A DNA stretch of 64,000 nucleotides from NCBI GenBank assembly GCA_000827205.1, contig KN832558.1:1483942-1547941 (forward strand), written 5' to 3'. Below, in pieces: positions 9,464 through 50,703 of the stretch. A program made the translations under genes and the position numbers. This DNA is from Plicaturopsis crispa FD-325 SS-3. Lineage: Eukaryota > Basidiomycota > Agaricomycetes > Amylocorticiales > Amylocorticiaceae. The notes under the pieces are model-generated. The model saw only the letters and a list, made by a program, of their open reading frames with translations, was not told where the DNA came from and made no database searches. The stretch's first letter is position 1. Each line of letters starts with the position of its first letter.

Positions 9464-10655
9464 CACTGGAGGAAAAACAGCTTGGAACGGCCCGTTCCAG
9501 CCTGACAACATTTGAATCCCAGTAAAATTGTTTTCGGCCTGTTTTAGGCCGATCCATACTGAATACAGTATTGTTGGGACCATCTTACCCCTTACGTTCC
9601 AGACTGAACACTTTATAAATTGAATCAGTTTATGGCTCTCCGTAGAAAACTGAAGACAGTGCGACTGTTTCCCATGATGCCAGTTCTACATCAACGTCGT
9701 TCCATTGTTGCTGGCACCATCTTGTAACGAGCGTCGCATCGGAATGGCACGGCAGTTTCCGATTTTACTGGCTTTGTTTTGGTACGGCGCGAATAACAAA
9801 CATCTCACGGGTATTGCCATCAAAGTGCAGATGCTGAGCCATCTCAGTAACCTTTTAAATGTAACGAGTGTGGATCCACTCGAAGCAACCTGAACACATG
9901 CAAATTGCGTTCATGTTGTTCCGACGAACTTCAGGCGTAAGCCAGTCAAACTGTGGCCTCGCAGACATTGCTAACGAAGATCGTGTTTCCAGCCTGATAA
10001 GATTGATAATGGGATTATCTTGCAACCCCGCCACCCAACGCGTTTCTTCGGCCCGGTCCAATATTAATGGGACTACCTTGTTGCAAGGTGAGCCATTCCA
10101 ATGGCATCAACTTGGAACACGCCGCCCCAAGCAAGACCCAATGTGTGACGCGTGACTGAAATCCGGTCGGAATCTCTGCGAGGATTTCGTTCAGAATCCG
10201 GGCGACGAGTCTCACTCGAATCAGCGCGTACTTTGGTCGCCGAATCTCATCGGAGTACGAGGTCGTACTTTTGTGTGATTTTTGGCGCGAAATTTTTTGT
10301 TCTTACCGCACCGACTCCTCCTCGTGGTATAATACCACTTTGACATCGTTTCAGGTTGTCAGATAGCACGAGCATGCGTGCGCCCGACAGGTCGCGCCGT
10401 TCACGCCCTTTTCACCGACGCGCTCCTCGCGTTGCGCCTCCCCATCCAACGTCACGCAGATATGTTCTAGCTGCCTCTTTTACTAACCTTCAACCCTAGC
10501 TCGCCCACAATCCTATCTTTTCTAAGCGATTTTCTCCCTATTCCTGTCGTTTTTATGATCAATCAATTATGCAGCTTCGGAGCCCTACCCACCTCCCCAT
10601 ATTTCGCCCTGTAAAAATGCTACGCTGAGCGCTCCACACTTCAAGTCTCAAGCCT

Positions 10656-12581
10656 AGCTCACGGTAAGTATCCCTTCCCTTCTGCGTGCTGGCGCGTTAC
10701 TCACTTGCAGCGCGCGTTCGACCTGACCGAATCCTTCGTGCTCTCCTACGCGTTCTCTGCCAAAGTAGAAGTGGAAATCAGCTGTACAAATTTCAACGTA
10801 AGTTCTGGCATGATTTTCTTACCGTCGCAGTGCAGCTGACTCCGTTCGTCCAGCCCAAGCGTAACCTGGCCGCGTGACAAGATAGGACGAAGAGCGTATA
10901 GAAGCCAAGGTCTGACGGTTCCTTGAGAGGGCAGATGAAATAGCCATAGAGCTCTCTCTGAACACACGAGAAAAAATGTCAGTCCACGTACTCCGAGGAT
11001 ACGAGTGCGTTCTTTTACCGAGAATCCGTTGGCCCCTCCGGTGGAGCACTTGCGGCGAGCGTCTCCCACAAACGCACGGCTCCCGTCCGTCCAATATTAA
11101 CCTGGATACCACGAATTAAATGCGAGCGTCTCCAAATTATCGCTGTACTCTAACAGCACTGAATCCGACCGCATTTCTGGAGTTGCTACTTTAAAACTGT
11201 CTCGTTACTTCACTCGTGGGGTGGGCGAGGACCGACCTGGGGACATCCCGCTGCGCTCTCGGGTATGGCGCCACCCCGCCATAGTACCAGTCCGCCGTAG
11301 TCGCATTGCAATGCAAGGATGATTGCCTCTGCGCCCGACCCTGGAGAGCTGCCACCGACCGTCGAAGTCGGCCACAAGTTCTACTGGTGGTAATGCAGAA
11401 ATTACTCGATTTAACCGCCGTCAAAAATATGGTCGGAGTGTGGCCGGAATGCTGCCCAAAAACTTGAGTGCACGGGCATGTTCATCATCGAGGCTCTCGA
11501 AGGCAATATGGTGGCCTGATGATTTGCGAGTGAATCTGAAGGGCGTCTGAATACAAATGTGTATGCTGACCTTTCCGTCGGTCACTGGCACACCGCGCCT
11601 ACTTGTGCGACACTTCTTTACTATATGCTATGTTTTCGCGCGTCGTTAAAAAGTCTTGTATTCCAATGGGCTGTCTCGCACCGATTATCCTGCAGCCGTC
11701 CTCACTGCCCACCTTCCCCGTTAGATCTGGTGAAAAACTCTCCCCGCGCTGCCGGCTCAGACGTCGAATACCGAAAGACGTGGCGGGCCGTCTTGGGCCC
11801 AGTCGCCTGCGAGAAAAAGTCGACTCTCAGCTATCCACCCCTAGCCGCCGCCACAGCGATAGCCGCCTCCGATAGCTTGTTCGTGTGGAAACCAGTACGC
11901 CTACAGACTTTAGTCGGATTCACAGATGAACCGAGGTGGAAATACCTAGAACGAGCAAGCCTAACGTCGGGACCCTAACCCTGCTCGCGATGGTACGCAT
12001 GAATACAATCTATCACCTGCAATCGCTTCCCCGGGCACGACCGGTACACCCGTTCTAGATCGACGATGATACGGGAAGGCCAATGGTGCATTGCGCGGTG
12101 ATTTGTGACTGAAAGAGCTGACGGCGAGAAGGTTATTGACTTGGAGCGTGAGCGGAGAAGACGAGGACCGTACGCGGGACGAACAAACGCCTTACGAAAG
12201 CTGTGGTCTTGGGATAATCTGGAGGAAGCAGAGAGAACAGCTTAAGTGCGCGAGAGCGAATGTCCAAGTGTTGCGAGGAAGGCCGAACAGACGTCGGCCA
12301 GTGACTTGAACTCGACGCGCAGAATGAAGGCAAAGACCTCAGCGACGTTCCTCGTCGTGTCGTATTGGCATCGCGTAACCAAAACGTCATCTTGGGAGCA
12401 GCGCTTGCTTATGTTTTCAGCACGATGAAGGCAGGCGACCAGCAAAATACCCAGGCTGTGTTTCATGAGGCTACAGTGCTGAGCGCTCACCCCCGTTCGT
12501 CGTAATCGCCGCCGCGCTTTTTTTCCGCAACAGTTTTGATGGCTTTTACCTACATCGAACGCCAGACTGGTTCCAACGGTC
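10656..12581 (+). repeat. Left-arm-specific segment with diverged tandem duplicate
   Basis: The segment replaces a 382-bp unrelated stretch of the right arm (49073-49454). About 0.9 kb of it (roughly 11560-12430) is an old, diverged copy of the adjacent block 12880-13740. Shared stretches include CCCTGCTCGCGATGGTAC, GACGTCGGGACC and GTCGTATTGGCATCGCGT in the same order. The left arm therefore carries two tandem versions of a unit of about 1.3 kb, one intact and shared with the right arm, the other decayed and unique. Confidence 0.7.
11758..12091 (-). pseudogene. Decayed paralogue of the TIR-borne 101-residue gene
   Basis: Read from the ATG at 12091 on the minus strand, the translation parallels the intact gene at 13052-13411. 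It gives DLERVYRS for ELGRVYQS, AYHREQG for EYHREQG, TGFHTNKLSEAA for TGFHINKLSGAA, and ARHVFRY for THHVYRY, with an intron at the same place. In-frame stops follow HREQG and GPDV, and another follows AARGG, so this copy is dead. Similarity at the protein level across such divergence is the best evidence that the intact copies were under coding constraint. It lies only in the left arm. Confidence 0.6.
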
Positions 12582-13051
12582 GTATGAGCATGCCACGGTA
12601 CTTTGATTATGCATCACAAATTTCCAACCTTTCATTTCCACTGCGGGTAACACAGAAAGCCCTCCGTGTCGAAAATGCCGGCAGAAATTCGCCAGAATCT
12701 TGCATTTACCCGTTTAAGCGCAAGTTCGACAGGCTCTCAGTATTCTGACCTAAATATCTGCGAGTGAATGCTCTGAACGCGAAGCCTGATACGCATGTAC
12801 TGACCTCTTCGATAAAAGACGGGTTCCAGCAGCCGTTTCGTGCGCGGCCGATGCCCGACGCCACCTATGTTTGTGCAGTACTCGTTTGCTCACTGCGTCC
12901 CTCGGCGATGTCAAAAAACATGATATTTATTTGAGTTCTCTCGCACCAATATATTCACAGCCATGCTCGCTCCGTAATCGCACGTCCCGTCGAAAATTTC
13001 ACCGCGCCCAAGATATATGTTCGCCCTACGACTGCAAAGTCGGTCGATTTT

Positions 13052-13411
13052 TCATTTCGTTTCCTGCTTGGACGTCGGATACCGATAGACGTGGTGGGTC
13101 GTCTTTCGGCCGGACGCCCACGAGAAAAAATCCACTGTCAACCAGCCGCCCCTGGCTGTCGCAGTAGCGAGTGCCGCTCCTGATAGCTTGTTGATGTGGA
13201 AGCCAGTTTGCCTGGAGATGTGATTTCACTTGACCAATAAACCAGGCTGACAAGCGAGAGCGTACCTGGACCGAGCAAGCCAGACGTCGGGACCCCAACC
13301 CTGCTCGCGATGGTACTCGCGAATACACTCCATGGCCTCCGAGCGCATTGCCGAGCGCGACTGGTACACTCGTCCGAGTTCAACGACGAGACGCGAAGGT
13401 CGGAGTTGCAT
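13052..13411 (-). CDS. TIR-borne small protein, 101 residues (left copy)
   Basis: This is the mirror copy of the right-arm gene at 48243-48602, with an identical translation. Exon 1 encodes MQLRPSRLVVELGRVYQ and CIREYHREQGWGPDVWLARSR. A 54-bp GT-AG intron follows. Exon 2 encodes TGFHINKLSGAALATA, RGGWLTVDFFSWASGRK and THHVYRYPTSKQETK, then stops. The splice keeps frame exactly (306 coding bases). I do not recognise the family; the protein is small and basic, without a signal peptide or membrane segment. Presence in both arms plus a decayed third copy marks it as a resident gene of the transposon, possibly a regulator or end-binding factor, which is inference. Confidence 0.55.
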
Positions 13412-14300
13412 GTTGCGGTGTATTTACTGCTGAAAGCGTGAACTGCGACGAGGTTACTGCCTGGGAGCGTGAACGGAGAAGACAAGGAGCGTACGCGTGA
13501 CAAATAAGCGCCGTAGGAGTGCGTCAGTTGCGAAACGAGATTCGATCGGAGCCTTCGAGTTGTTCACGCGCGAGAGTGAACGTCAATGTGGGTGCTGTGG
13601 TTGAACGAAGCGTCCGCTGAGCACGAGTGCTGACGGTTGAAGTAAAGTCGAATCACGGAAAGAGCGACAAGACCTCCGCGATGTTTCGCGTCGCGTCGTA
13701 TTGGCATCGCGTGGCCAAACAAAATATTTGGGAGAGCCGCTCCGTGTTTTCGACACGCTGAAGGCTGACACCCCGACCGTTTTCAGATATTTCGATGATT
13801 ATCGAGTATTCCGACCGTTTTCGACGAGACTGCCTTGTCCTGCCGCCGACGCGCTTGCTGTGCGCGGTGTCCACAGAGCTTTCATCGACTTCAACCATTG
13901 TTTTCAGACCGTTTGACCGTTGAAACGTGGGGTATGATTGCCTTTTTCGCATCGTTTCTCTCTCTTTTTTGAACTGTTTTCTTTGGGGTGTATTTTGTCC
14001 TAGGTTATAGTACTACAAAATAACTGTGCGAGCCTTCAGTTCACGTATTTGGGAGAACAAGCAGCTTGTGGCTTACATGCGAAATCCCTTGTGTTGAGAA
14101 GCACTCTATGCCCAGTAACGCCGCACAACGAATCAGCGTCACATCGTGTCTATGCGGACGCAAGCGCGGCGCACACCAGCAGCCATTCTGTTAAGTGCGC
14201 GGTCTAGGTCGGGTTCAGCGCGTTCCTTGGAAATGCAGACGCCAGTGCACAGCACGACATTTTCTGCGCGACGGCGGTGTGCACACCTCCTTGACGTCGT

Positions 14301-14933
14301 TTAGTCAGACTGATCCCTGATCTCCAGAACATTCGGAGCTGAAAAACATATGAAGATGATTAGTATATGCCCGGATTTACGGTCGCAACGGAAGATGACA
14401 GTACCGCGAAATATGTCATACACTTGCGCTCGGTAGTGTTGAATCGATGCTAGGAAGCGTGAGTGTTCAGACTGGAAGATGGGCACTCGTGAGCCATGCG
14501 AGGGCGACCACTCCGAGCGGTTGAAGGTGCCCAAAGTGACCAGGGAGCTTTTCGTTCGTCCAAACCGTTTTGCAATTGCCTCAACCGACTGCTCGAATTG
14601 TTGATTGGTGTTATGTGTGAGACCTGATCAGCCACAGACGACCGGGGATCGGTCTCTGTGACACGGCAGAGAGTACCTATGAACCGTCTATGAGCGTTTG
14701 AACCCACCAAAACAGAACGGACTTACCGTCGCGAACGGTGTTGTCCCTCTGCCTGACGAGGCATCAATTCCGTCAATTCCCAAGTACGAACTGGAGACGA
14801 AAGCCAGTAGGTTGAAACTACGGATGATCGTGGATAGAGATGAGCATATCATGCAACAGCTAAAGCTTTCGTGCTGAGTGGATAAGCACAGGATAAACAG
14901 TAAGTACCAGGGGTATTCTCGGATGTCGGTCAT
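14301..14933 (-). CDS. TIR-borne hydrophobic small ORF (left copy)
   Basis: This mirrors 46721-47353 and translates identically. The first exon begins MTDIREYPWYLLFILCLS and is rich in hydrophobic and Ser residues, followed by a good GTAAGT...TAG intron. The downstream exon structure is ambiguous: two reading frames stay open, ending at positions mirrored by 47204 or 47353. No family is recognised. Two identical copies mean that an open frame here is weak evidence of coding, so this is tentative. Confidence 0.3.
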
Positions 14934-14986
14934 CGGGTGCGTCTAGGACAGGAATCCGTCGACTTCCCTTGCCGTCTCATCGCTTC

Positions 14987-15097
14987 ATCGCTTGCCTGGC
15001 CGCTCGAAATCGCTTGCCTGGCCCCATCGCTTGCCTGGCCCCATCGCTTGCCTGGCCCCTTCGCTTGCCTGGCCCTGTCGCTTGCCTGGCCCTGTTT
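14987..15097 (+). repeat. 17-bp minisatellite at inner edge of left TIR
   Basis: Six units of CGCTTGCCTGGCCCCAT, with variant last bases, run head to tail. Five units lie inverted at the inner edge of the right TIR. The homology between the arms ends within this array. Confidence 0.85.
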
Positions 15098-15100
15098 AGC

Positions 15101-16022
15101 ATGGCCCATCTACTGTGTAAATTCTGTCAAAGCCGGTATCTACAGGGGGAGGACATATGTAAGACGCCATGCAGTGAGTCCCTTCCTCTGGTTGCACATC
15201 TTTTTGTTGCGAGTGCTAAGATCTTTGTAGACCATATGTTCCATCCTGCTTGTGTGAAGAGACAGCTAGACGCCGTCTCCAGCACCGCTCCAGCCCTTTG
15301 CCCCCAATGCGCTTCCCCCATTTCAAGAGACACGCCGTTGACCCGTATTTTTCTTTCTTTCGATGAAGACAATACCGACCGTGATATGCTACAGTCCGTA
15401 GAAAGGTGTGGCGATAGCATTCACGTCTGTTTCTTGATCGGCTCATCTAGATCATATATCACAGTGCCGTTCTTTCCTCAAAGGCTGTCCACGATTCACG
15501 CCGCCGCCGGCTGCAAGCAATGAACCGGCGTATCGCTAGCCTGGAGACTCAAAACGAAAAGGACGAGGAAACAATCACTCAACTGTTCAGCCTGTCTGCC
15601 GAACGCGATCAGACGGCTGCCCAACTGCTGAAGGATATTGCTGATGCGGAGCAAGCTCAGGCGACCTTGAGTAGAACCGAGGCAGCCTTGCGGCAAGAAC
15701 TGTCGCAAGCCATCAAGGAGGTGCGCTCTGAAACCGCTTATTTTTTTCGCTACGTTTAATTCAGAGGTTCCATGCAGCGCGACGAAGTCTCTCTGGACTT
15801 GTAGTACTGTGGTTGTGCCGTGTTGGAACCGCATATCTGAAATATACGCTATTGCATGGTCATCGCATTGTAAGCCGATTTGAGATTGAAAAATCATTGT
15901 ATCTCATTACTATTGATAATGTGACTGCCTTTGGACTCGTTAGAGCACCCGGATGTCCCTTTGCCCGTACCATACACCTTATCCCTAACAACCTACGGCC
16001 TCAAGAATGCCAGAGGAATTGA
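15101..16022 (+). CDS. RING-H2 finger protein with coiled coil (cargo)
   Basis: The start codon lies 10 bases inside the left TIR. Exon 1 encodes MAHLLCKFCQSRYLQGEDIC and KTPC. A short intron follows, then DHMFHPACVKRQL and CPQCASPISRDTPLTRIFL. The metal ligands read C-x2-C...C-x-H-x2-H-x2-C...C-x2-C, a RING-H2 pattern expected of an E3 ubiquitin ligase. After a second intron (GTAGAA donor near 15397), SLETQNEKDEETITQL onward is a long charged, Leu-periodic coiled coil. The layout recalls TRAIP-like proteins. The C-terminus is uncertain: the last exon may read through to 16022 or stop near 15804 in another phase. It converges on a second RING/coiled-coil gene. Confidence 0.65.
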
Positions 16023-16639
16023 AGGGCGGCACCGTATTCCTCTTCTCAGTGCAGCTCACGTGAATGCAAGGCTAGAACTATGCAAATGCTCTCTCCCAAC
16101 CGATGCTCTGCTGCCCAGGGTAGCGGGAGGAGTATCAAATCGCAGGGCGAGGGTTCACTTCATACTGGTTCCACGTTCAAATCTCATTTGTTTTCCCGTC
16201 CATTTTACGACGCTGTTAATCACTGGGCCGGTCAACTATCCTACTCCACGTCGACGAACTCAATTCACCGTTTTTTCTACACCGCGTTGAACCGTGCAGA
16301 CAACATACTTCTGCCGACAGAGGACAGGCTTGAATCATGTCAGCATCCCTGAGATACTCATTCATCGCCAATCAGTCTCCGTGTAGTCTTGCGTACTACC
16401 AAACTGTCTTTACTGTTAAACGTTAAACGCTGATTAATATTCATCATTGTACGAAACAAAATTCACTAGCAACATGTCTCAAACCCAACGCTTGCCCCAG
16501 TGGAATTCCGGGAAAATACACATCTGTACCGCTAAATTCGAGTGTCAAATCCCTGTAGTGTACTATTAGACGATACTTGCAGCGTCCCATGAGGATTTTT
16601 CGTAGCGTAGGAGGAGGAGAACACGCACTTTCAACTGAT
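16023..16639. other. Spacer between convergent RING genes
   Basis: The spacer between the two convergent RING genes contains short open frames only, with no conserved motif, repeat or RNA gene visible. Confidence 0.4.
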
Positions 16640-17763
16640 TTAGGCTGTCGATGAAGAACTTGTATCCGAATCGGACCTCTGCATATCTTTGAGGACATGC
16701 GTCTGTAATAATCAGTCAGCCATCGACCATATATAGAAGGAGCAGGAAGAGAAAAACTAACCCAGAGCTTGACTTCCTGTATCTGCTTTTGAAGCTCTCC
16801 TACCGAGTCCGTCCTTCTCTTTATATCGTCGCGCAGGGTTTCGAGGGTCTGACGGCAGGATGCTACCGCCTCCATTCTCTTGAACTGCTTCCCCTGAACG
16901 CGATTGAGGGCTATGGTTTGCGTCGAGACCTTTTTCTCGATCTTAATGAGGTCCTGGGCACGCTTCTTGATTTCGCGCTGTATCTTGAGCGTCTCGGAGT
17001 GTACATCGTGCTTGATTCTATCGACATGAAGATGATTAGCCTTAGAAGCCGGGGAAAACAATTCATACTCGCCGGTCAATACACGACGCGACACCTTTGT
17101 CATCCTCAGGTTGATAGTGCCAGATGTCGAGAGGAGTAGACACTACAGGTCGAGGTATCTCGCATTTGTATGGGCAGTTTTGAACCTTGCCTAAGCAGCG
17201 GCGGCACAGGACATGTCCTGAGAGCTGTGGTCTCAGAACGCGCTCGTCTTTTTAGCGCAAGAGAATGGACATACCACAGGCCAAAGTCTTTGGAGCAAGC
17301 CCTCTGGGACCTTCCTTAAATACATCCAGGCAAACAGGGCACCGAGGGAACATGAATATCCGAGCGCCACTACAGCAGGTGAGCAAGTAAGTGAGCAAGA
17401 AAGAGATAGAAATCCGCCAGGATTGACTACCGTGGTGGCTCGAGGTGCCCGGTGCCCGATTCTCCTTTGTCTTGACTTGCCATGTGTTCCAACTCGGCCT
17501 CGAGGGCATGCCAATACAAGCTCCTGCTGAGAGATAACAGATTTTCAGCGTATATCATACTAGCATGGTTCCACAGACAATTGATTGATAAACCAGAATA
17601 CAGAAGGCAGCTAATTCGACCCATGACTTATCTGTGACTTACTCGTGTAGTGCGAAGGAATACATCTAGCCATTTGTGCAAATAAAATCTCCGCATTCAT
17701 GTCGAGAAAGAAGGCGGCTGGATCCTGAGCTCGAGGAGGAGTAGACGATGGTTGCTTGTCCAT
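16640..17763 (-). CDS. RING (C3HC4) finger protein with coiled coil (cargo)
   Basis: The start at 17763 encodes MDKQPSSTPPRAQDPAAFFL. Later exons give the RING domain: FPRCPVCLDVFKEGP, LACG, then after an intron HVLCRRCLGKVQNCPYKC. The ligand order is C-x2-C...C-x-H-x2-C-x2-C...C-x3-C, so the last pair is spaced by three residues rather than the usual two. From about 17100, RIKHDVHSETLKIQREIKKR and onward form a coiled coil of about 100 residues. After an intron ending near 16700 the C-terminal exon encodes THVLKDMQRSDSDTSSSSTA and stops at 16640-16642. It is likely an E3 ubiquitin ligase with a dimerising coiled coil. The neighbouring RING gene has the same plan, which may mean an old duplication. 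Confidence 0.75.
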
Positions 17764-17894
17764 TTCTGTTACCTGTATTAGCCCTAATCACTTCACACTA
17801 CGTCTAATTTGCGGCGTACAGATAGACACTGGAGATACTATCTGTCCGTCAATAATTCCTAGCATTCGATACAGTGAGAACGCACTGTTGAGCA

Positions 17895-19589
17895 TCATGC
17901 GGCCGCCCCGTGGGGCGAAAGTTGCTGAAATACCCCACCCTTGATGTACGACAAGATTTCTTTCCATCGTCTGTCGAACTCGCGCATTCCCTCTTCCGAT
18001 ACGTTTGAGCGAAGGTGCATGTCTCCTTCCTGCCGTACGTCTCCCCACGCCCAAAGTTCGGCGACATTGGGCATCAAACGCGACAGCGAAACCGCAACAG
18101 CGAGTGTATTGCTGCTCACGGGTGAATTCCCGAGGCAGAGAGAAACGAGTGAAGTGTTTGGTACGATGTCCCAAGGCGGAGAGAGCACGGTTTCGACATC
18201 CAAGAGGTCGACGACGAGTCCGAGGGCAGACAGAGTCGGACAGTGCCGAGCTAGGGCAGCTAGTCCCAGGAGCGTAATACGCGAGGGTATGACCCACCCA
18301 TACGCAGGGGCCAGGGCAAATTCGTTGAGCAACGGCCACGAGATAGCCATCCTCTCCAGATCAGCGTCTTCTATATCATATCCATACACAACGTCGCATC
18401 GAAATACCCGCAGGCCATGGAAGGAGAGCAGCGGGCGTAGAGCCCTGAAATTCAAGATCGTGCATTGATCCTGAGGCGGTGCAGGAGCTCCGATGTCCGA
18501 GCCTTCCCATACTTCAATATTGATCCTAGAAGGCGCTGCATGACTACAGCGCCGTCCAAGTACCTCGAAGAACGCAGCCCATTCTGCTCCCGAGCCGTTC
18601 GAGTCTTCGGTGATCGTGTTAATGCATATGTCTCCGAGGTACTCCATGCTAGCGAAGTCGACGAGTTGCGAAAGATCGGCGATTTGTTCGAGGACAACAT
18701 CGATGGAAGTGAGCGACTGAAATTGTAGGACGGGTGTGTTCGTTTCCGCAAACGAGGACAGCAGGTGGGAGTAACGGGCAGTTTCGGGCCATTCGAAATC
18801 AAATTCGAGGTCAAGATGGCGAAGGGAGGGAAGTGTTGAGATGGCAATCAATCCGTCGAATGTGATGCACCCACAGTAGAGGTGCGTCAGTGTCAACCAC
18901 CCACGGCGGATGGCAGTGGAACTGGGCCCATCGATCCGACAAAAAGGAATCATGAGCTCGGAGAGACCTGGGCAACGATCCGCCATAGCATGCAGAAGCA
19001 TAGAGTCCATCGCGAATTCAAACGAGAGTCGTTTTAAAGAAGGTCCCATAAAGAGAAGGATAAAGGAGGATAGTGGATGGATTGAGAAGGACGTGGCTGA
19101 CGTATGCCTGTTATGTCCAACTTCTAGAGTCCGTAGATGGCTCATAAGGGGAAATACCTCCGGAATGCCCAATAGAGTCTGCAGGGATTCTTCATCGAAC
19201 GGCTGAATCACTGACATGCCCTGCAAGACGAGCGTCCTGACGCGGTCGGCGTAGGTTTTCAGTCTTTTCCAAGCATCCGACGAGATAGTCGCCCCGCTGA
19301 GGCTCTGCCAGTTACGTATGAGCAGACCGTATCTTGAAGTAGCCTGATCACATACCATAGTCCCCTCGTCAGCTTCATCTTCGTACCATTCTTCCCAAAT
19401 GTCGGGGCCCAAAGTCTTTAAAAGTGGCTTCAAACTATCTTGAGTGTGCCATAGAAGATCTAAAGCAGGGTCTTCGAACGCCTTGCACACCGTGGCGAGA
19501 CGGCCCAAATCGCGACTACCTCCGTCCGGTCGCTGGACGTAGAAAAATATGACATCGAGGATATCGATGATGCGTAGGCAAGGATGCAT
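17895..19589 (-). CDS. F-box-type LRR protein (cargo)
   Basis: This is a single uninterrupted frame of 564 codons. The N-terminus MHPCLRIIDILDVIFFYVQ followed by LATVCKAFEDPALDLLWH is the F-box-like opening typical of the large agaricomycete F-box/LRR family. The rest carries irregular leucine-rich repeats, for example LRTLEVGHNRH, LKRLSFEFAMD, LTHLYCGCITFDGL and LRHLDLEFDFEW. Such proteins act as substrate receptors of SCF ubiquitin ligases through Skp1 binding; the target is unknown. The lack of introns is usual for this family. It lies just upstream of, and in the same direction as, the second RING gene. Confidence 0.8.
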   Translation of the reverse strand: MHPCLRIIDILDVIFFYVQRPDGGSRDLGRLATVCKAFEDPALDLLWHTQDSLKPLLKTLGPDIWEEWYEDEADEGTMVCDQATSRYGLLIRNWQSLSGATISSDAWKRLKTYADRVRTLVLQGMSVIQPFDEESLQTLLGIPEVFPLMSHLRTLEVGHNRHTSATSFSIHPLSSFILLFMGPSLKRLSFEFAMDSMLLHAMADRCPGLSELMIPFCRIDGPSSTAIRRGWLTLTHLYCGCITFDGLIAISTLPSLRHLDLEFDFEWPETARYSHLLSSFAETNTPVLQFQSLTSIDVVLEQIADLSQLVDFASMEYLGDICINTITEDSNGSGAEWAAFFEVLGRRCSHAAPSRINIEVWEGSDIGAPAPPQDQCTILNFRALRPLLSFHGLRVFRCDVVYGYDIEDADLERMAISWPLLNEFALAPAYGWVIPSRITLLGLAALARHCPTLSALGLVVDLLDVETVLSPPWDIVPNTSLVSLCLGNSPVSSNTLAVAVSLSRLMPNVAELWAWGDVRQEGDMHLRSNVSEEGMREFDRRWKEILSYIKGGVFQQLSPHGAAA

Positions 19590-20063
19590 TGGTACAGCAC
19601 TAGAGGTCTAAGGTGTAAGCTTTACGGGAGGACGCATCAAAAGAGTATCTTACCAGTATCTGATCTAAATATGGGATATCCAGACATTCAGCGAGGTATT
19701 TGTGAGTACGAGCAGGAGGAGGAGGAGGTGTAAGGTGGCAGGCAAGTCACCGCAGAGAGCATAATCGCGGAAGTTGAATTTGGGATCGGACGACACGGTC
19801 GACGTCGCGGACCGTCGACCATGATCAGGCTTTTTCAAATCTGAGCGCTAGCGCTCGCCATCCCTTGCCCTTGCCCAATTGCGAGCTCAAGCATCGCTTG
19901 CGCATTTATCCCATACCTCATTCGCCGCCGAGCGTTTCATCCCACCCTCAGACGGCTTCCTGTTTTTGTCCTCTGTCTCGAGGCATTCACGGAATCTCGA
20001 GAGAATACATAAATTATACGCTACGGAGCCGCGATCTGCCTTGGATCTGCCCGTAAGTCTAGC
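19590..20063. other. Spacer
   Basis: The divergent spacer between the F-box gene and the next gene includes a short palindrome around GGTCGACGTCGCGGACCG near 19800 and a run GCGCTAGCGC near 19850. Nothing else is recognisable. Confidence 0.4.
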
Positions 20064-35094: not shown

Positions 35095-35404
35095 GTCTTT
35101 GCATAGATTGAGTCCAGATGATGTTGTCCACAGATTTTGTGTTCCGTGCCCCTGGGCGGAGTAAATGGTATCATACTTCATGCTAAGCTCTGGATGGACC
35201 GGTACTGAACCTTGAGGACCACGTTCCGGCGGACATGCGGCACGCGTCTTCCAAGATAATCGCGTGGGCTGGCGCGTGTCGTGTACATTGGGTACCTTCG
35301 TCTTCCCTCTTTCTCCTTCATCTCCTTCTCCTTTCCGCCAGCTCTTAGCATTTTGGGCTTCCACGACATTTGTAAAGATTTCACAGTTTTATCGTTTCAG
35401 CACG

Positions 35405-40700: not shown

Positions 40701-41100
40701 AGTTGGCCCGTAACGGTCGGCCTATCCCCCGGTATAACATTCTGGTGAAGCCCTGGAGACATCCCCTGATGAGGTCGTGGTTGCAAGTCATTGACTCTGT
40801 TCATCTTCACGTGCGAATGCAGAGTGGGAGCGCCGCCAAAAAAGGAGCGTTCGTACATGCTCGCGAGCTCTCCACCAAGAGAAGCTCTCGCCCGCATGTA
40901 TCCCGGCTACCTCGCAATGCGTACAACGAGGCCTGGCTCGCACTCCAGTCGGAGTTTACTCTTTTGGATATAAACCCTGATCCAAACGAGTATGATTTTG
41001 GGCACTCGGTCGAGATAATGAAGTGAGTGTTACACGCATAAGCTATTCCACCAGGGAGACTAACCAATTTGGATTCATCAGCATTGCGCTCGGGCAATGA
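37750..41100 (+). CDS. Large disordered protein with C-terminal agaricomycete domain, candidate TnpA-like companion
   Basis: The start at 37750 encodes MSVSSHGGNVLTLEERRSAF. A Pro/Ser/Gln-rich disordered region of about 550 residues (38.0-39.7 kb) contains three internal repeats around SLHGSSPSRPPVASPLRHSV and SVQLDDMF. The C-terminal half is globular: SAVIQELRMLNGTLQLQG (coiled coil), LAKVRNPDDVQAM, KYMRKYD, FVSRLGVDGMSSDETDHES, ILVKPWRHPLMRSWLQVID and VSRLPRNAYNEAWL, ending IALGQ at 41098-41100. To my knowledge this C-terminal domain occurs in many copies in agaricomycete genomes, suggesting a transposon-linked family. In plant CACTA elements TnpA binds subterminal repeats together with Tnp2; that role is inferred here by position. 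The exon join near 37965-38010 does not keep frame as I read it, so the N-terminal structure is uncertain. Confidence 0.6.
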
Positions 41101-41134
41101 TTTGCTCAAAGCGTAACTTGCATATCAGCCTATG

Positions 41135-41560
41135 GCATCCATGCCTCAACTTCAAGCCCCTTCTACTGTTTCATATCGTTTCACACCAACTGCTGCCTTT
41201 CATTGCCTCTTTCCTGCACCAATCACCGATTTTCTTTTTTTTCACCCGCCTTCCCTTCCAGATTACTATGTCCCCCTCCAGTCAAGCTTCAGATCCCATT
41301 ACTTCCCCATCACCGTTTTACACCAACTGCTACCTTTCATTGCCTGTTCCTACGCCATCTAGTACTACGTTCTTCTTCTTTTTTTCACCCCTGCCCGGAT
41401 TATCATGCCCCCGCCCCCCTCTACTCAAGTCGCATTATTTCCACATCAACTGCCGCCTCTCCTTTACCCTTTCTTGTACCTATGCGTTTCCCAAGCTGTG
41501 ATTTCCCCTCATCTCTACGCCAACTGTTGTCTTTCTTTAATTTTGTATACTGGACTATTG
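41135..41560 (+). repeat. Pyrimidine-rich degenerate tandem repeat
   Basis: The motif CACCAACTGCTGCCTTTC recurs near 41188, 41319, 41443 and 41518 in increasingly diverged form, each time followed by a C/T-rich run. The spacing is about 125-130 bases for the first units. Long open frames here reflect codon-poor CT composition, not a gene. Confidence 0.55.
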
Positions 41561-42989
41561 TGGCTGTTATCTCCTGGGAATGAACCTGATTCTTTCCTAC
41601 TTGCGACCGAAGCGAGACACGATCGTTGGCGCTTGGCTAGCGCGCTTACCGTTCACGGCCAGTTCACCGCTTGCCGTCACCGCTATCTCTCACCGCTTGC
41701 CCTCTTTCGCTTGCCATCTCTCTATCGCTTGCCAGGCAGCCAGTGATTGTTTTGAGTTGTTTCGATCAGAAGCGTCTCGACGAATTTTGGGTCCAAGCAT
41801 CGATATCCCGATCACGACTGCTTAGCCTTCAACAAACTTCGACGAAAGACTAGCCTTTCAGCGCCGGCTCTCATAGAAGGTTTCCGGGTGGGTACGACCA
41901 TTTGGCATTTGCTCATATTTCACAAGGTTGGCTGATTGAAGGAAATAGTAAACATGATCGCACCCGAAGTAAAGGAAGAGGAGTGTCATAGTACGGAACA
42001 GGGAATTCACGATACCATCAAGGGACGAGAGATGCCAACGGCGCAAGATACGGCGCAGTCCGTATGCGCAAGCAGCGATACAGGTAACAGTACACATATT
42101 CATATCAAAGTTAGGGATGATTGTAAATTGAAGTCGTTACCCCGGGGACGTGTCAGGTTTTACTTTGAACGTGGACGGCGCCAACTTTGCCAAGTCACGA
42201 TCCACTGGTTCCGCTGTGATTGTCCTCAATATTCCGTCCTCCCTACCCGATATACAGAGGTATACATTCTTCCACCGTTGCACCACTCTAGCCAATTTAT
42301 GATTATCCTAGGAATGGTGTCGGTCTCACTGCTGGGCCTATGATTTGCTCGTCTCCTTCCGCTGCCTAAGCCATGTTTGTAATATACAAGAATTTCTGCT
42401 CTGGACGACGCACTGACGGAACTAGGGACGGACTTGGGACTCGGGGCTTGTACCTACCCAAGTGTTTTCAAGAGCCAAAAAATTTGTCGTTTTCTCTGGC
42501 TACCGGATATTGCTTCAAACTTTCGATCCGAGCGTGATGCAACTGGTGAAGGGGACTATGCTCAGTGGTCCGTACGGAGGACGCGTACGAGGAGAAAAGC
42601 GCGCCGAAGACAAGACCACGTGCTAGATCGAAGTCGAAATTTGAAATTTAACTTTGAAGTAACTTGACCACTCCTACTTCTCTCGGGAGTACACAGCTGC
42701 TCATCTATTTATTTAGAGACTTTTTTTGGCAAACCGCTGTTAATCTGCGCAAACTGTACGTTCGAGCTCGAGCCGAGGACCGGATACCACCATCACCCAA
42801 ATTCTCGTTCCACCTTCCAAGGAGCGCCAGGTGTCCTCCGCGTCTCGGGAAACCAGTCTCATCGTGAGCGTGCGTGATCCACTTCCCCTGTATGTAAAGC
42901 TTAGGTGCTTATTGCTTTATAGGTGGGGACTTGCTCTGCTTGCCACGATTGCAGCACACTAGCGCGCCCACATTTTCGCTCCCACATCC
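41561..42989. other. Spacer upstream of JmjC gene
   Basis: No convincing gene. Around 41660-41745 the words CGCTTGCC and GCTTGCCATC recur several times, resembling the TIR minisatellite unit CGCTTGCCTGGCC. The right end should contain the JmjC promoter. Confidence 0.4.
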
Positions 42990-45900
42990 ATGGATTCGTC
43001 CGCTTCGAGTTCAACCACTTTGCCTTTCTTTCACGCGAACCGCCATGCCCCCAAACACAAAAATATAGGCTTCCGGGAATACCGCGGTTTTGGCGAACCA
43101 AATTTCGCGGGTCTCGATATGGCAGAACCACCAATTGCTGGCGACATATATGTCGACCTGTCTGGAGATATTCCCGGTCACACGTATCGTGTTTTTGTGA
43201 GACTTAACGATGGGTGGAGAGAATGGGCTGGGGACAACGACTGTGAGAAAGCAAATGATGTGCACATCTGGCATCCGACCCGCGAAAACACTCCTAAATT
43301 GCGCCCTCTCTTTTATTATTCCGATGGTGTACCAATAACACCAGGGTGGGTTAGCTGGACTGGGTACCAAAGCTGGCGTAAAAAGCGCTTTGAGAAGTTG
43401 AAGCAGGTGAAGGTACGGAATTGCTCTTTATCGAGCGACCATGGCTTAGGAGCCCCACCCTAGCCTAATACTCCCACTGGAGAAACATCGTCAAGACTTC
43501 GGTCTGCGCATGCATGCGTTGCCCTATTTCTTGCGCAAGAACGAATGGAAATCCATCCGAAAACCAAACGGAAGCGACCAGAGATAACGGCGCCAGAATC
43601 CCTCGATGATCGTTCCTATTCCTCGAGCAAGAAAAGTCGTACATCTCGTCTGGACGTTTCCAACAGCGCCAAAGGCTCGGACGTACTTCTGCGACATCCT
43701 CTTTCTCCAATGGGTTATACAGCTGCACAACCCGGTGCCGCATCCGATCCTTCGGAGAGGTTCACAGACGCTAGAAACACGCTCCGACGAGAGGTAGCAG
43801 GGGTACCGAGCCATGACGAGGACACTCTGTCGCATGCTTTGGCTATATCCGGATGCAGTGATACTGAGCCGACGTCGCCCCGCGCACATGGCAGCAGCTC
43901 ACCTCATGCAGTGGCTCGTGTGGACCCACGTATGGTACTGTCTCCTGATGGTCGCCCTGGCCCAGACGCTAGTGGAAATGGGGAGGCCCGAGCACGTGCG
44001 GGGCGTCAGCGCGACGCAGAAGCTCAGACCGACGCAGCACCACTCTCGGCAATATTCGAGCGTGAATCGTCTGCTAGTCCAGGCGCTGATGACACTGACG
44101 ACGCCGATGTATTTGTCAGACCATACCACGGTGTATGCTGGCCACACGACGCCAAGATCCTCAGTTGGAGTAACGGGTTGCGAACTGTGGGCGCTTGGAA
44201 GTTTGCTCCAGGGGAACATAACTTCGTACGTCTGTCACTGTTTCTTTTCGTATTACACGTGAAGGCTGATATATCGGCTCGCTTCATCTTATAGGACATG
44301 GATATTCTCGAGTACATCCGCGGATGCCCCGATGGAACTGCCCACCAAAGTCCTAGCCCTATCAACCCCGGCTATGTCATTCTCGATTTCCCAGCCTTCG
44401 CACATCGTCATAAAACGAGGCTTGAACTCCGTGCGAAACCCCGGGACACGCAGAATGTGGGTCTACAAGAAGACCGCTTACTGGAAAGACAAGTTCGGGA
44501 GGCTCTGTCTCGCAATAAGCCTGTTATCGTTCAGAATATTCCAACAGACGGAGGAATATCGTTCACGGAGGGGGATATCAGTCGACTTTCAATGGTCAGT
44601 CAAAAGTTGGAATGGCAAGGTACGTTCCACCGTGTTGTAACTTTTGCTTTTCTCGTCCGTTCTGACCGCTGACACCACTAGATTCGCTGGTGCGGGCGAA
44701 AAAGCTTACACGGGCAATGAAGGAAGAATTGCCTCCGCGCGACGCGTACTCCCAGTCCGACAAACACAAGCCGGCTGAATCGAATTCTGCGCGTGACGTT
44801 GAGTTTAACGTTCACAAAATGACGACCATCTCCGAGTTCATCAAAAAGTCGGAAAGTCCCAAAGTCTGCGGGAATCTGCTTGATTTACCGCAGTTGCGCT
44901 TAGCAGTTTCGCCGCTGATAAGGTGCGAAATACTCTCGGCTCATTTCTCCGTCTTAGCTTATGTCGACATCGTGCCTTTTGTTTAGAGACTTATCTGACG
45001 ATGCTCTGGCTTGGGTTACCACCAAGGATGATGGGCTGATGGATATCCCTGCCGTGCCTGTTGAGCTCGATGCTGAGACCCGCAGTGTAAACCTGGAGCG
45101 ACCGAAGTGGCAGTCGTCAAGTCCGGAAGCATTGGCACTGGACCAGATCAAGCTGGGTCAGTGGGTCCTACTCACACACGCTGGATTCTTGACCCATGTC
45201 CATCATGACGCTGGTGGGTTGGCAACATGGATCGAAGTACAAGGTGGCGGGTTGAAAATTTGGGCAATTGTGATGCCCAAAGTGACAATGGCTCATGATA
45301 CACGGCAAAAGGTCTTCGAATTGTTCGAAGAAATTGGTGCAGCTCCTTGGAAGTGGGCCGAAGCTGTTAAGAATCACTGTATCGCCGATGTATACTGGGC
45401 TTTCCTCGAGCCTGGCCAGACACTGTAAGTCGACACCTTCCCGCACGCCCATAGTACACTTACTCAACCACTCGTCAGCATCATGCCGCCAGGCGCATTT
45501 CACGTCGTCTTCACACCAACACCAACTGTCGCCATCGGGGGTCACTTCTTGACTTATGAGACCCTGCACTTGACAGAAATCTCTCGGGCTTTCGACCATA
45601 TGCACTCGCATTGGAGCACAAATGTCGAACATAATGCTGTCCGGCGAGCAGTTGCTCGCATGGCTTTGGCGCTTCCTGCATATTCACGGCTGCCCACCCC
45701 GAAGAGTACGTGTATTATGCAATGCCAATCGTCTGCTTCGTTGACGAAATGCCTGCGCTCTACAGACATGTACCGCCGCAATTTCGCTGCGCTCGCTCGT
45801 ATGGTCTTGCTAGCAGAGCTATACCGTACGGTGCACGAGACCGATTCCCCTATGCCGCTGGCTAGCTTCGATCTCATGCGAAACAAGGAGGCGAACGACC

Positions 45901-46151
45901 TCGAAATGGCCTCATGGATCGTTTTGGCCGTCATGAAAAAGAACGGGATCAGTGTTTCTGACATCGACCAGCTTGTCTTAGTTGGGGGTGCCGAGTATAA
46001 CCACCTTGGATCGGACACAGTATCCCTACGCTGTCTCCAAAAGGTCACCATTGCAGACATGAGACCACCAAGTGATGAACTGGTCCGTGAATTAGCGGAA
46101 TGGAGGCGGAAATTGCTCGATCAAGACCAACGAGACAGGCAGGAGAGGTGA
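42990..46151 (+). CDS. JmjC-domain Fe(II)/2-oxoglutarate dioxygenase (cargo)
   Basis: The start at 42990 encodes MDSSASSSTTLPFFHANRH. An N-terminal folded region (IGFREYRGFGEPNFAGLDM to WVSWTGYQSWRKKRFEKLK) is followed by a disordered linker with the basic stretch HPKTKRKRPE, a likely nuclear signal. The catalytic part runs from GYVILDFPAFAHRHKTRLEL through KLGQWVLLTHAGFLTHVHHD, with the HxD iron ligands in HHD. The third His is in MPPGAFHVVFTPTPTVAIGG, with W and aromatic residues spaced as in JmjC folds. A helical C-terminal region ends at 46149-46151. All seven introns keep frame. Such enzymes demethylate histones or hydroxylate proteins; the substrate is unknown. It may influence chromatin at the element or its host, which is inference. 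Confidence 0.75.
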
Positions 46152-46580
46152 AGGCGCGAACTAGGCTGAGGCGGCCCTTACGGGGGACTCAGTACTCACT
46201 GGTTGGAAATTGCAGATTAATCAGCATATTCCTATTCCCAATGTCGCTACTCTCCACATCAGTACGGATTTTTTTATTTACGGAATCTCGCTGCAATATA
46301 AGTAGTATATGCACTCAGTTGCAAGTACATACGCAAGTACATACAGTTCGTTATTACAGATTACAGTACAAGACCTACTGGTAGCACTATCCCAGTCAAT
46401 CTTTCTTGGTGGATGTAGAAGCAAACGCTGCCGAGCAGGCAATAAGCAAGTACTGTGACAGTAGCGTCTCTTCACCTTCCAGCTTCCAGATTCGCTTCAC
46501 TTGGCGCCGAGTGCTGCAGCGCTGAGCGCTGAGGCCTAGAGCTCAGAGACTGACTGACTCTGAACGTTTGAACGCTTCAA
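46152..46580. other. Spacer before right TIR
   Basis: The spacer between the JmjC stop and the right inverted repeat includes GCGCTGAGCGCTGAGG near 46520. No gene is seen. Confidence 0.4.
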
Positions 46581-46668
46581 GCCAGGCAAGCGACAGGGCC
46601 AGGCAAGCGATGGGGCCAGGCAAGCGATGGGGCCAGGCAAGCGATTTCGAGCGGCCAGGCAAGCGATG
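46581..46668 (-). repeat. 17-bp minisatellite at inner edge of right TIR
   Basis: Five inverted units of the CGCTTGCCTGGCCCCAT repeat, one fewer than in the left arm. Confidence 0.85.
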
Positions 46669-46720
46669 AAGCGATGAGACGGCAAGGGAAGTCGACGGAT
46701 TCCTGTCCTAGACGCACCCG

Positions 46721-47353
46721 ATGACCGACATCCGAGAATACCCCTGGTACTTACTGTTTATCCTGTGCTTATCCACTCAGCACGAAAGCTTTAGCTGTTG
46801 CATGATATGCTCATCTCTATCCACGATCATCCGTAGTTTCAACCTACTGGCTTTCGTCTCCAGTTCGTACTTGGGAATTGACGGAATTGATGCCTCGTCA
46901 GGCAGAGGGACAACACCGTTCGCGACGGTAAGTCCGTTCTGTTTTGGTGGGTTCAAACGCTCATAGACGGTTCATAGGTACTCTCTGCCGTGTCACAGAG
47001 ACCGATCCCCGGTCGTCTGTGGCTGATCAGGTCTCACACATAACACCAATCAACAATTCGAGCAGTCGGTTGAGGCAATTGCAAAACGGTTTGGACGAAC
47101 GAAAAGCTCCCTGGTCACTTTGGGCACCTTCAACCGCTCGGAGTGGTCGCCCTCGCATGGCTCACGAGTGCCCATCTTCCAGTCTGAACACTCACGCTTC
47201 CTAGCATCGATTCAACACTACCGAGCGCAAGTGTATGACATATTTCGCGGTACTGTCATCTTCCGTTGCGACCGTAAATCCGGGCATATACTAATCATCT
47301 TCATATGTTTTTCAGCTCCGAATGTTCTGGAGATCAGGGATCAGTCTGACTAA
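46721..47353 (+). CDS. TIR-borne hydrophobic small ORF (right copy)
   Basis: Identical in translation to the left copy at 14301-14933. Exon 1 (MTDIREYPWYLLFILCLS to GTTPFAT) ends at a GTAAGT donor. The next exon opens VLSAVSQRPIPGRLWL. Depending on whether a 35-base second intron is used, the frame ends at 47204 or runs through GTFNRSEWSPSHGS to 47353. No homology is recognised. The N-terminal hydrophobic stretch could be a signal peptide or membrane anchor. Confidence 0.3.
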
Positions 47354-48242
47354 ACGACGTCAAGGAGGTGTGCACACCGCCGTCGCGCAGAAAATGTCGT
47401 GCTGTGCACTGGCGTCTGCATTTCCAAGGAACGCGCTGAACCCGACCTAGACCGCGCACTTAACAGAATGGCTGCTGGTGTGCGCCGCGCTTGCGTCCGC
47501 ATAGACACGATGTGACGCTGATTCGTTGTGCGGCGTTACTGGGCATAGAGTGCTTCTCAACACAAGGGATTTCGCATGTAAGCCACAAGCTGCTTGTTCT
47601 CCCAAATACGTGAACTGAAGGCTCGCACAGTTATTTTGTAGTACTATAACCTAGGACAAAATACACCCCAAAGAAAACAGTTCAAAAAAGAGAGAGAAAC
47701 GATGCGAAAAAGGCAATCATACCCCACGTTTCAACGGTCAAACGGTCTGAAAACAATGGTTGAAGTCGATGAAAGCTCTGTGGACACCGCGCACAGCAAG
47801 CGCGTCGGCGGCAGGACAAGGCAGTCTCGTCGAAAACGGTCGGAATACTCGATAATCATCGAAATATCTGAAAACGGTCGGGGTGTCAGCCTTCAGCGTG
47901 TCGAAAACACGGAGCGGCTCTCCCAAATATTTTGTTTGGCCACGCGATGCCAATACGACGCGACGCGAAACATCGCGGAGGTCTTGTCGCTCTTTCCGTG
48001 ATTCGACTTTACTTCAACCGTCAGCACTCGTGCTCAGCGGACGCTTCGTTCAACCACAGCACCCACATTGACGTTCACTCTCGCGCGTGAACAACTCGAA
48101 GGCTCCGATCGAATCTCGTTTCGCAACTGACGCACTCCTACGGCGCTTATTTGTCACGCGTACGCTCCTTGTCTTCTCCGTTCACGCTCCCAGGCAGTAA
48201 CCTCGTCGCAGTTCACGCTTTCAGCAGTAAATACACCGCAAC

Positions 48243-48602
48243 ATGCAACTCCGACCTTCGCGTCTCGTCGTTGAACTCGGACGAGTGTACCAGTCGCGCT
48301 CGGCAATGCGCTCGGAGGCCATGGAGTGTATTCGCGAGTACCATCGCGAGCAGGGTTGGGGTCCCGACGTCTGGCTTGCTCGGTCCAGGTACGCTCTCGC
48401 TTGTCAGCCTGGTTTATTGGTCAAGTGAAATCACATCTCCAGGCAAACTGGCTTCCACATCAACAAGCTATCAGGAGCGGCACTCGCTACTGCGACAGCC
48501 AGGGGCGGCTGGTTGACAGTGGATTTTTTCTCGTGGGCGTCCGGCCGAAAGACGACCCACCACGTCTATCGGTATCCGACGTCCAAGCAGGAAACGAAAT
48601 GA
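48243..48602 (+). CDS. TIR-borne small protein, 101 residues (right copy)
   Basis: Exon 1 is 48243-48388, the intron 48389-48442 (GTACGC...CCAG), and exon 2 48443-48602 with TGA at its end. Coding length is 306 bases, exactly in frame. The protein contains HREQGWGPDVWLARSR, GFHINKLSGAALATATA, RGGWLTVDFFSWASG and HHVYRYP. It is identical to the left-arm copy. A third, decayed copy in the left arm keeps the same intron position and conservative replacements, which supports real coding. The function is unknown; the location suggests a transposon-encoded accessory factor. Confidence 0.55.
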
Positions 48603-50703
48603 AAAATCGACCGACTTTGCAGTCGTAGGGCGAACATATATCTTGGGCGCGGTGAAATTTTCGACGGGACGTGCGATTACGGAGCGAGCATGGCTGTGAA
48701 TATATTGGTGCGAGAGAACTCAAATAAATATCATGTTTTTTGACATCGCCGAGGGACGCAGTGAGCAAACGAGTACTGCACAAACATAGGTGGCGTCGGG
48801 CATCGGCCGCGCACGAAACGGCTGCTGGAACCCGTCTTTTATCGAAGAGGTCAGTACATGCGTATCAGGCTTCGCGTTCAGAGCATTCACTCGCAGATAT
48901 TTAGGTCAGAATACTGAGAGCCTGTCGAACTTGCGCTTAAACGGGTAAATGCAAGATTCTGGCGAATTTCTGCCGGCATTTTCGACACGGAGGGCTTTCT
49001 GTGTTACCCGCAGTGGAAATGAAAGGTTGGAAATTTGTGATGCATAATCAAAGTACCGTGGCATGCTCATACGACAATTGACAGCGAACTAGCATACACT
49101 GAAAAGCGCCCCCGAGTTAACTCTGCCCTGACGAACGAAATGCGTCAGTGCTCAGTAACGGGACAACAAGCAATTGCATCCAGAAGCCACCGTTAACTTG
49201 ATGCGAGCCGCGGCCCAATCTACTGAAACATATGGCCTTGGCAAGACGAAAAACGGATCGAGTGGTGCAAGTCAGCACCGTGGAGAACGATGGAAAAGTT
49301 CAACCAAGGTTTCAGACGCTCGCGTCGAGCTCGGCATGCGACGCGGGCGGTGGATTCCCCAGCGGGAGTAGTCCGAGCGTCAGAATGACATCGAGGCAGA
49401 TGTTCGCTGCCGCCAGTGGTGCTTCACCGGATTGGAAATCTACATGTTGGTACGTTGCTTGAGACTTGAAGTGTGGAGCGCTCGCTCAGACTAGCATTTT
49501 TACAGGGCGAAATATGGGGAGGTGGGTAGGGCTCCGAAGCTGCATAATTGATTGATCATAAAAACGACAGGAATAGGGAGAAAATCGCTTAGAAAAGATA
49601 GGATCGTGCGCGAGCTAGGATTCAAGGTTAGTAAAAGAGGGGACAGAATCGCACGAACGCGTATGTATGCTTAGAGCAGATAGGATTGTGGGCGAGCTAG
49701 GGTTGAAGGTTAGTAAAAGAGGCAGCTAAAACATATCTGCGTGACGTTGGATGGGGAGGCGCAACGCGAGGAGCGCGTCGGTGAAAAGGGCGTGAACGGC
49801 GCGACCTGTCGGGCGCACGCATGCTCGTGCTATCTGACAACCTGAACACGATGTCAAAGTGGTATTATACGACGAGGAGGAGTCGGTGCGGTAAGAACAA
49901 AAAATTTCGCGCCAAAATCACACAAAAGTACGACCTCGTACTCCGATGAGATTCGGCGACCAAAGTACGCGCTGATTCGAGTGAGACTCGTCGCCCAGAT
50001 TCTGAACGAAATCCTCGCAGAGATTCCGACCGGATTTCAGTCACGCGTCACACATTGGGTCTTGCTTGGGGCGGCGTGTTCCAATTTGGATGGCTCACCT
50101 TGCAACAAAGTAGTCCCATTAATATTGGATCGGGCCGAAGAAGTGGCGAGTCGCAAGATAATCCCATTATCAATCTTATCAGGCTGGAAACACGATCTTC
50201 GTTAGCAATGTCTGCGAGGCCACAGTTTGACTGGCTTACGCCTGAAGTTCGTCGGAACAACATGAACGCAATTTGCATGTGTTCAGGTTGCTTCGAGTGG
50301 ATCCACGCTCGTTACATTTAAAAGGTTACTGAGATGGCTCAGCATCTGCACTTTGATGGCAATACCCGTGAGATGTTTGTTATTCGCGCCGTACCAAAAC
50401 AAAGCCAGTAAAATCGGAAACTGCCGTGCCATTCACTCGTTACAAGATGGTGCCAGCAACAATGGAACGAGGTTCCCCATTGTTATCGCAATATGTGGCC
50501 GGGAAAAATGGGTTCTGTATGCTACAGACAACTCCAACCGAACTCCACATATACTGGATTCATCTTGTAACCCAGGGAGAATGATAGACCCAACAATACT
50601 GTATTCAGTATGTATCCGCCGAAAACAGGCCGAAAACAATTTTACTGGGATTCAAATGTTGTCAGGCTGGAACGGGCCGTTCCAAGCTGTTTTTCCTCCA
50701 GTG

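Follow-up and report, generated by a model that had tools for sequence, protein, structure and literature searches.

The 64,000-nucleotide stretch of the Plicaturopsis crispa FD-325 SS-3 genome analyzed here (contig KN832558.1, positions 1,483,942 to 1,547,941; referred to below as the window) contains an element of 41,240 bp at positions 9464–50703, the ends of which, CACTGG...CCAGTG, were read directly in the window. The element belongs to the EnSpm/CACTA superfamily by its CAC...GTG termini, its 3-bp duplication, and its Tnp2 transposase. We regard it, with a probability of about 0.8, as an autonomous-looking giant EnSpm/CACTA transposon, one of a small, low-copy, and strongly diverged family of giant elements. 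CAC...GTG termini are present both in this element and in a second one on contig C4 of the same genome, the 3-bp duplications are TTA and GGC, respectively, and the transposase matches PF02992. The element is not of the plant type, in which inverted repeats of ~13 bp are accompanied by repeated subterminal motifs, because its arms are kilobases long and lack subterminal motif repeats. We consider it likely to be a mobile unit, or to have been one until recently.

The left terminus, at position 9464, opens with CACTGGAGG, and the right terminus closes with CCTCCAGTG at position 50703; the reverse complement of the opening bases CACTGGAGGAAAAACAGC closes the right end of the element. A preliminary description of this DNA had noted CACTG ends, flanking copies of a TTA duplication, and inverted repeats of kilobase length, and all three were located as follows.

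9461–9463, no strand: left copy of the target-site duplication TTA, read in the sequence
9464–50703, no strand: whole element CACTGG...CCAGTG, delimited by its ends, the TTA duplication, the repeats, and the rarity of the end motif
9464–10653, plus strand: outer block of the left inverted repeat, found by BLAST in pieces of 90.7% and 94.6% identity
12579–15073, plus strand: inner block of the left inverted repeat, 99.92% identical to 46581–49075
46581–49075, minus strand: inner block of the right inverted repeat, the partner of 12579–15073
49457–50703, minus strand: outer block of the right inverted repeat, paired by BLAST with the left outer block
50704–50706, no strand: right copy of the target-site duplication TTA

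The two kinds of block differ greatly in identity (91–95% versus 99.92%), the inner pair being free of gaps over 2,495 bp. The arms are also unequal in length, with 5.6 kb on the left and 4.1 kb on the right, and between the outer and inner blocks the left arm has 1.9 kb and the right arm 0.4 kb that are not homologous to each other. When the outer block was followed in steps of 100 alignment columns, the first 100 bp were 97% identical, the second and third steps had 62 of 97 and 66 of 86 columns alike (a divergent stretch of ~190 bp with 64–77% identity), and the ten steps after this patch had 92–100% of aligned columns identical. This mosaic of blocks that are 64–100% identical suggests gene conversion or recombination between the arms or between elements. 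The interior between the arms, previously put at 31 kb, measures ~31.5 kb (15074–46580).

Across the genome (33,202,659 bases in 49 contigs), a search for the end motif of 27 bases that tolerated up to 3 mismatches gave one forward and one reverse match, which are the two termini of the element; a control with the reversed pattern gave 0 matches. The first 801 bases of the element likewise match the genome only at both termini. The same ends between different flanks, which had been suggested as something to look for, were not found elsewhere in this genome with the 27-base motif or the first 801 bases. The end sequences, the target-site duplication, and the scarcity of the end motif across the genome point the same way, and chance inverted repeats were therefore rejected as an explanation. 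From the 20th base of each end there is a palindrome, TGGAACGG C CCGTTCCA (9483–9499 and 50668–50684), which may be a protein-binding site; no comparable palindrome was seen by eye at the end of the C4 element. Each arm carries a 17-bp tandem repeat at its inner edge, at the point where the identity of the arms stops (14986–15092 with 6.0 copies and 46581–46668 with 4.9 copies). Searches of the window for RNA families and for tRNAs gave 0 matches each.

The Tnp2-type transposase that had been recognized in the preliminary description is encoded by an open model of five exons.

30942–34928, plus strand: Tnp2-type transposase, 5 exons, open 1235-residue model, PF02992

The protein matches PF02992 (Transposase_21) with 35.1 bits against a cut-off of 28.6, in a version that lacked 14 residues because of a false 42-base intron. 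The residues read in the window transposase are D436, D531, C550xxC553, H940xxxH944, and E964, so that a DDE triad is present together with C(2)C and H(3–4)H between the second D and the E. In an alignment of 11 transposases, consisting of those of the window, C4, and the C1 locus described below and 8 homologs longer than 780 residues out of 120 listed, the two D, the CxxC, and further residues including H624 do not vary; the positions of H(3)H and E were taken from the window protein alone. A FERYN stretch in this protein is also visible in the C4 and C1 models. D436, D531, E964, and the motif residues are presumed to be catalytic from their position and the family description. The description of EnSpm-type transposases lists D, D, E, C(2)C, and H(3–4)H (PMC12730594). 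No Plavaka domain is among the Pfam matches of the window transposase; PF18759 is carried by 4 of the 120 listed homologs. A database protein, P0001, from a contig of 7.3 kb, is 90% identical across 93% of the window transposase exon, which indicates that a close relative exists in another organism or strain.

PF02992 matches 11 places in the genome and the main transposase exon of the window gives 17 rows, which were merged by hand to 16 Tnp2 loci, some of them fragments. The second complete element, C4:784620–843261, is 58,642 bp long, begins and ends with CACTGGG...CCCAGTG, and is flanked by GGC on both sides. In the 80 kb examined around it there is no other N-free CACTR/YAGTG pair that is at least 2 kb apart, has at least 18 matches in 25, and has matching 3-bp flanks, and the end sequence of the C4 element matches the genome only at its own two ends. 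This element holds relatives of the Tnp2, JmjC, and ORF40 genes of the window, plus genes for a WD40 protein and an SNF2 ATPase. The latter (C4:819727–823216, SNF2-rel_dom at 174 bits) is another chromatin-type protein, and no SNF2 gene was found among the scanned proteins of the window. The C1 locus, where inverted pieces near 3745848 and 3801518 are 90% identical over 350 bases, has in common with the window the genes for Tnp2, the F-box protein, the second LRR-like protein, the protein designated U, the WD40 protein, and, weakly, the RING protein. The identity between the window and C1 is 58% for the main Tnp2 exon and 24% (E = 3e-7) for the RING gene, and the best non-self match of the F-box/LRR-like gene in the genome is at C1.

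The genes other than the transposase were delimited with a simple in-house exon-chaining predictor, which gave six models inside the element, several of them fusions of neighboring genes: F-box with RING, second LRR-like with acidic, U with WD40, and the transposase with 35405–36735 and the ORF40 gene. The JmjC model is unfused, and a weak model at 19165–22239, opposite another gene, was dropped. Splitting by hand with Pfam and homology, together with an open reading frame (ORF) at 14897–15523, gives about eleven genes in all, with approximate exon and gene borders, in agreement with the estimate of about ten genes besides the transposase made earlier. The Pfam scan covered ten proteins of the element and, of the eleventh, the ORF40 portion from ~40070 onward.

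14897–15523, plus strand: weakly RING-like ORF (zf-RING_2 at E = 0.04, under the cut-off) that starts inside the inner repeat
16640–17765, minus strand: RING-finger and coiled-coil protein, zf-RING_UBOX 32.3 bits (cut-off 25.2), hand-split
17895–19607, minus strand: F-box/LRR-like protein, F-box-like E = 0.0017, below cut-off
22386–23664, plus strand: second protein judged LRR-like by eye, without a Pfam match but with a similar gene at C1
24463–25393, plus strand: acidic low-complexity protein with a hydrophobic C terminus, hand-split, no Pfam match
26646–27944, plus strand: protein U, hand-split from the WD40 model, no Pfam match, similar gene at C1
28290–30428, plus strand: WD40-repeat protein containing hydrophobic segments, with similar genes next to Tnp2 genes elsewhere
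35405–36735, plus strand: protein that looks helical on inspection, with Dynamin_M at E = 0.037, far under the cut-off
37533–41022, plus strand: long low-complexity protein, its C-terminal part from ~40070 designated ORF40 (no Pfam match), homologs beside Tnp2 loci
42990–46151, plus strand: JmjC-domain-like protein (Pfam 18.5 bits, cut-off 24) that resembles KDM2/KDM7 and shows an HxD...H pattern

Three of these genes have relatives that recur close to Tnp2 genes. A genome search with the JmjC gene gives four rows, of which one is the window itself and the remaining three are 6.8, 21.6, and 38.2 kb away from a Tnp2 locus; ORF40 is found at five non-self places, all five within 40 kb of Tnp2 (9.8–35.2 kb); and the WD40 gene has four non-self loci, again all within 40 kb (4.5–39.9 kb), of which the farthest (on C14, E = 5e-4) is part of a 1347-residue frame and is perhaps an ordinary WD40 gene. 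The 40-kb zones around the 16 Tnp2 loci comprise 3.5% of the genome, giving binomial P values of 4e-5 for JmjC, 5e-8 for ORF40, and 1.5e-6 for WD40, with a limit of 40 kb that was chosen after the hits were seen. F-box genes, with 77 rows over many contigs, are not specific to the elements; of the non-self rows, the top two lie at C1 and ~47 kb from the Tnp2 gene of C7. Because the companions recur near strongly diverged Tnp2 genes, much of the content looks like an old gene set of the family's own and not like fresh host freight. Codon positions were compared in eight gene pairs, seven of which gave an answer (the ORF40 pair did not); in all seven it is the third position that differs most, which would be the pattern for proteins under maintenance. 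This comparison was made on matched stretches only and is biased to conserved parts. Another Tnp2 locus (C5:1472580–1476579) is located ~7–11 kb to the left of the window and has JmjC, ORF40, and WD40 relatives within 40 kb, and two giant elements may be neighbors at this place.

The HxD and the distal H of the JmjC-like protein are retained in both the window and the C4 copies. With the C4 copy as query, chains of human PHF2, PHF8, and KDM2A were matched weakly (E = 6e-4 to 0.02). In the two printed alignments, both with PHF2, the HxD motifs are in register and a Y of PHF2 faces the distal H; PHF8 and KDM2A have H at the matching position. The whole protein as query found no database relative among 8000 scored candidates, and residues 590–800 gave one match among 1649 candidates, PLICRDRAFT_173297 of Plicaturopsis crispa FD-325 SS-3. 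The first 553 residues of that protein are encoded on contig C4 without mismatch, in pieces of 377, 103, and 73 residues (all 100%), and the remainder matches C4 in a long piece at 74.6% (through an intron) and a 74-residue piece at 98.6%.

A number of results weigh against the interpretation of the element as one of a family of giant transposons. No further DNA-level copy of the 41-kb element was found in the genome with the queries 10650–30600 and 30500–49460, in searches that scored the best candidates only; the matches obtained were the element's own repeats and ~470 bases at 66% identity in the C1 transposase. Clean ends were obtained at two of the 16 Tnp2 loci, those of the window and C4, four of the 16 having been read at length. 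The inverted repeats of C4 were read at their outer and inner edges, where 366 terminal bases are identical and 328 bases are 99.1% identical, respectively, and its WD40 gene did not match that of the window in two comparisons. At C1, the similarity runs past the best CACTG pair, there are no matching 3-bp flanks, and the surroundings are rich in repeats; the gene order also differs, with U and WD40 swapped and the F-box gene in the opposite orientation, and the matched stretch of the transposase contains one in-frame TGA (an unspliced intron or a defect). The best PF02992 match, C2:968174, was rejected as a further element, there being no long inverted repeat in 80 kb and no credible ends; this Tnp2 gene may represent another lineage, because the search with the window transposase exon does not list it. 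With the limit lowered to 20 kb, proximity to Tnp2 is retained by one of three JmjC, three of five ORF40, and two of four WD40 loci (P = 0.06, 7e-5, and 2e-3). No excess of any 8-mer, as a sign of subterminal motif repeats, was found in the terminal 600 bp as compared with 300 shuffles per end. The Pfam scores of the JmjC protein are under the cut-off, and any role that it may have against silencing is putative.

The preliminary description had interpreted the element as a giant mobile unit that moves accessory genes, comparable with Starships but built on a DDE transposase. The giant CACTA element has been borne out, and a second complete element with different ends and a different duplication has been added to it; the idea of accessory cargo has been weakened, genes regarded as cargo recurring with diverged Tnp2. 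A Starship-like carrier, in which the transposase moves changeable genes of benefit to the host and may cross between species, appears unlikely to us. It would account for the presence of about ten genes besides the transposase, for the failure to find a second copy of either complete element, and for an SNF2 gene that is present in the 58.6-kb relative and absent from the scanned proteins of the window, and the size of the F-box family in the genome (77 rows) makes capture possible. The recurrence of JmjC, ORF40, WD40, U, and F-box relatives with diverged transposases, however, indicates old shared contents, and no metabolic, resistance, or virulence-type gene was recognized in the ten Pfam-scanned proteins or ORF40. 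A search for the Starship captain (DUF3435) gave 0 matches in the genome and also 0 in 14 control genomes, which is no proof of absence; none was present in the ten Pfam-scanned proteins.

The mosaic arms, with outer blocks of 91–95% and inner blocks of 99.9% identity separated by non-homologous segments of 1.9 and 0.4 kb, would also be consistent with a composite, in which the two ends of an ordinary short CACTA element, or a pair of related elements, came to enclose 41 kb of DNA now moving, or formerly moving, as a unit, and the inner 2.5-kb repeats arose in a separate event. We consider this improbable in view of the 58.6-kb element, which has a similar plan (long arms, a transposase, ORF40, and JmjC) with ends of its own; one-off composites would hardly arise twice with genes in common. 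That the element is a dead or domesticated relic, with genes kept for the host and ends that are remnants, is very improbable: the lack of a second copy and the divergent patch in the arms are as expected for a relic, but the TTA duplication is intact, the terminal 100 bases are nearly identical, the transposase is open, and the inner arms are 99.9% identical. A viral origin found no support, searches of viral contigs with Tnp2 and JmjC having given 0 confirmed relatives, and the CACTG ends do not agree with a Plavaka element.

If the element is a giant EnSpm/CACTA transposon, as we prefer, its transposase would bind the conserved sequence at the termini, where 100 bp are 97% alike between the two ends and the sequence behind them has diverged. 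It would cut the unit out at CAC/GTG, and reinsertion would follow from a 3-bp staggered cut. ORF40 is a candidate DNA-binding partner of the transposase, in a role like that of plant TnpA, and the odds that it assists transposition are about even. The JmjC protein, with the RING and WD40 proteins and, in the 58.6-kb relative, SNF2, may remodel chromatin on the element and avert silencing. For the JmjC protein to counter silencing of the element is plausible, at somewhat less than even odds, in parallel with the TET/JBP genes that other EnSpm elements of fungi carry. Exchange between arms or between elements would let gene modules be swapped. A broader proposal is tentative and, as a whole, doubtful: that basidiomycetes have a lineage of giant DDE-based elements (40–60 kb, low-copy, with kilobase inverted repeats) carrying a conserved chromatin-opening module of JmjC, ORF40, WD40/RING, and sometimes SNF2, which swap modules via their arms and have the role of Starships, including spread between species.

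The element is set between ordinary host genes, as had been proposed, with those for AMP deaminase and an MFS transporter in the left flank and those for a mitochondrial carrier and the AMPK beta subunit in the right flank. Its left end (9464) is only ~70 bp upstream of the likely start codon of AMP deaminase (9392, minus strand), and the insertion may therefore have displaced the promoter of that gene. The predictor had falsely extended the AMP deaminase model into the element.

Fungal EnSpm elements with a TET/JBP dioxygenase have CAC..GTG termini, 3-bp duplications, and the C(2)C and H(3–4)H motifs (Kojima 2025, PMC12730594), and the dioxygenase, the function of which is putative, has been proposed to undo silencing (PMC12730594). 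The element of the window is like these in its termini, 3-bp duplications, transposase motifs, and the possession of an extra gene with a putative role against silencing, but here the extra gene is JmjC-like (histone demethylase-like), the size is 41–59 kb, the repeats are kilobases long, and there are about ten genes in the window element. The term JmjC has 0 occurrences in the text of PMC12730594. If our interpretation is true, the JmjC-like gene, at four places in the genome and each time near Tnp2, would be an instance of a transposon equipped with an enzyme of its own for opening chromatin. Plavaka elements of Agaricomycetes have related transposases of the same larger clade (PMC12730594); their termini are TGT..ACA or CATCA..TGATG, and those of the window element are CACTG.

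Enlarged En/Spm elements of 16–20 kb with four to five ORFs occur in the red alga Chondrus crispus (cited in PMC6431247), and giant EnSpm elements with multiple accessory genes have been described in red algae (cited in PMC12477816). These are alike in being enlarged by accessory genes; the two complete elements described here are 2–3 times larger than 16–20 kb, fungal, and bounded by kilobase repeats. Enlarged multigene EnSpm elements are thus already in print for red algae; neither a giant EnSpm of such size in a fungus nor an EnSpm that carries JmjC was found among the listed results of the literature searches, in which coverage of subscription papers and preprints was thin. The soybean element Tgmt*, for which a transposase and a DNA-binding function have been described, is 20.5 kb long, with inverted repeats of 13 bp and well-marked repetition of subterminal motifs (PMC2613891). 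It shares Tnp2, the 3-bp duplication, and large size with the window element, but has short repeats and subterminal motifs.

In fungi, giant elements that carry genes are known mainly as Starships. Starships of Pezizomycotina are mobilized by a tyrosine-recombinase captain (PMC12134995), and eight have been reported in the basidiomycete Tremella fuciformis (PMC13066641). The window element is like them in being giant and in carrying many genes, and differs in its DDE-type transposase, inverted repeats, and 3-bp duplication. It also serves as a caution: what passes for cargo in a giant element can be an old gene set of its own and not captured host genes. If the interpretation given here is true, there is, besides the tyrosine-recombinase Starships, a second way of building a giant fungal mobile unit.

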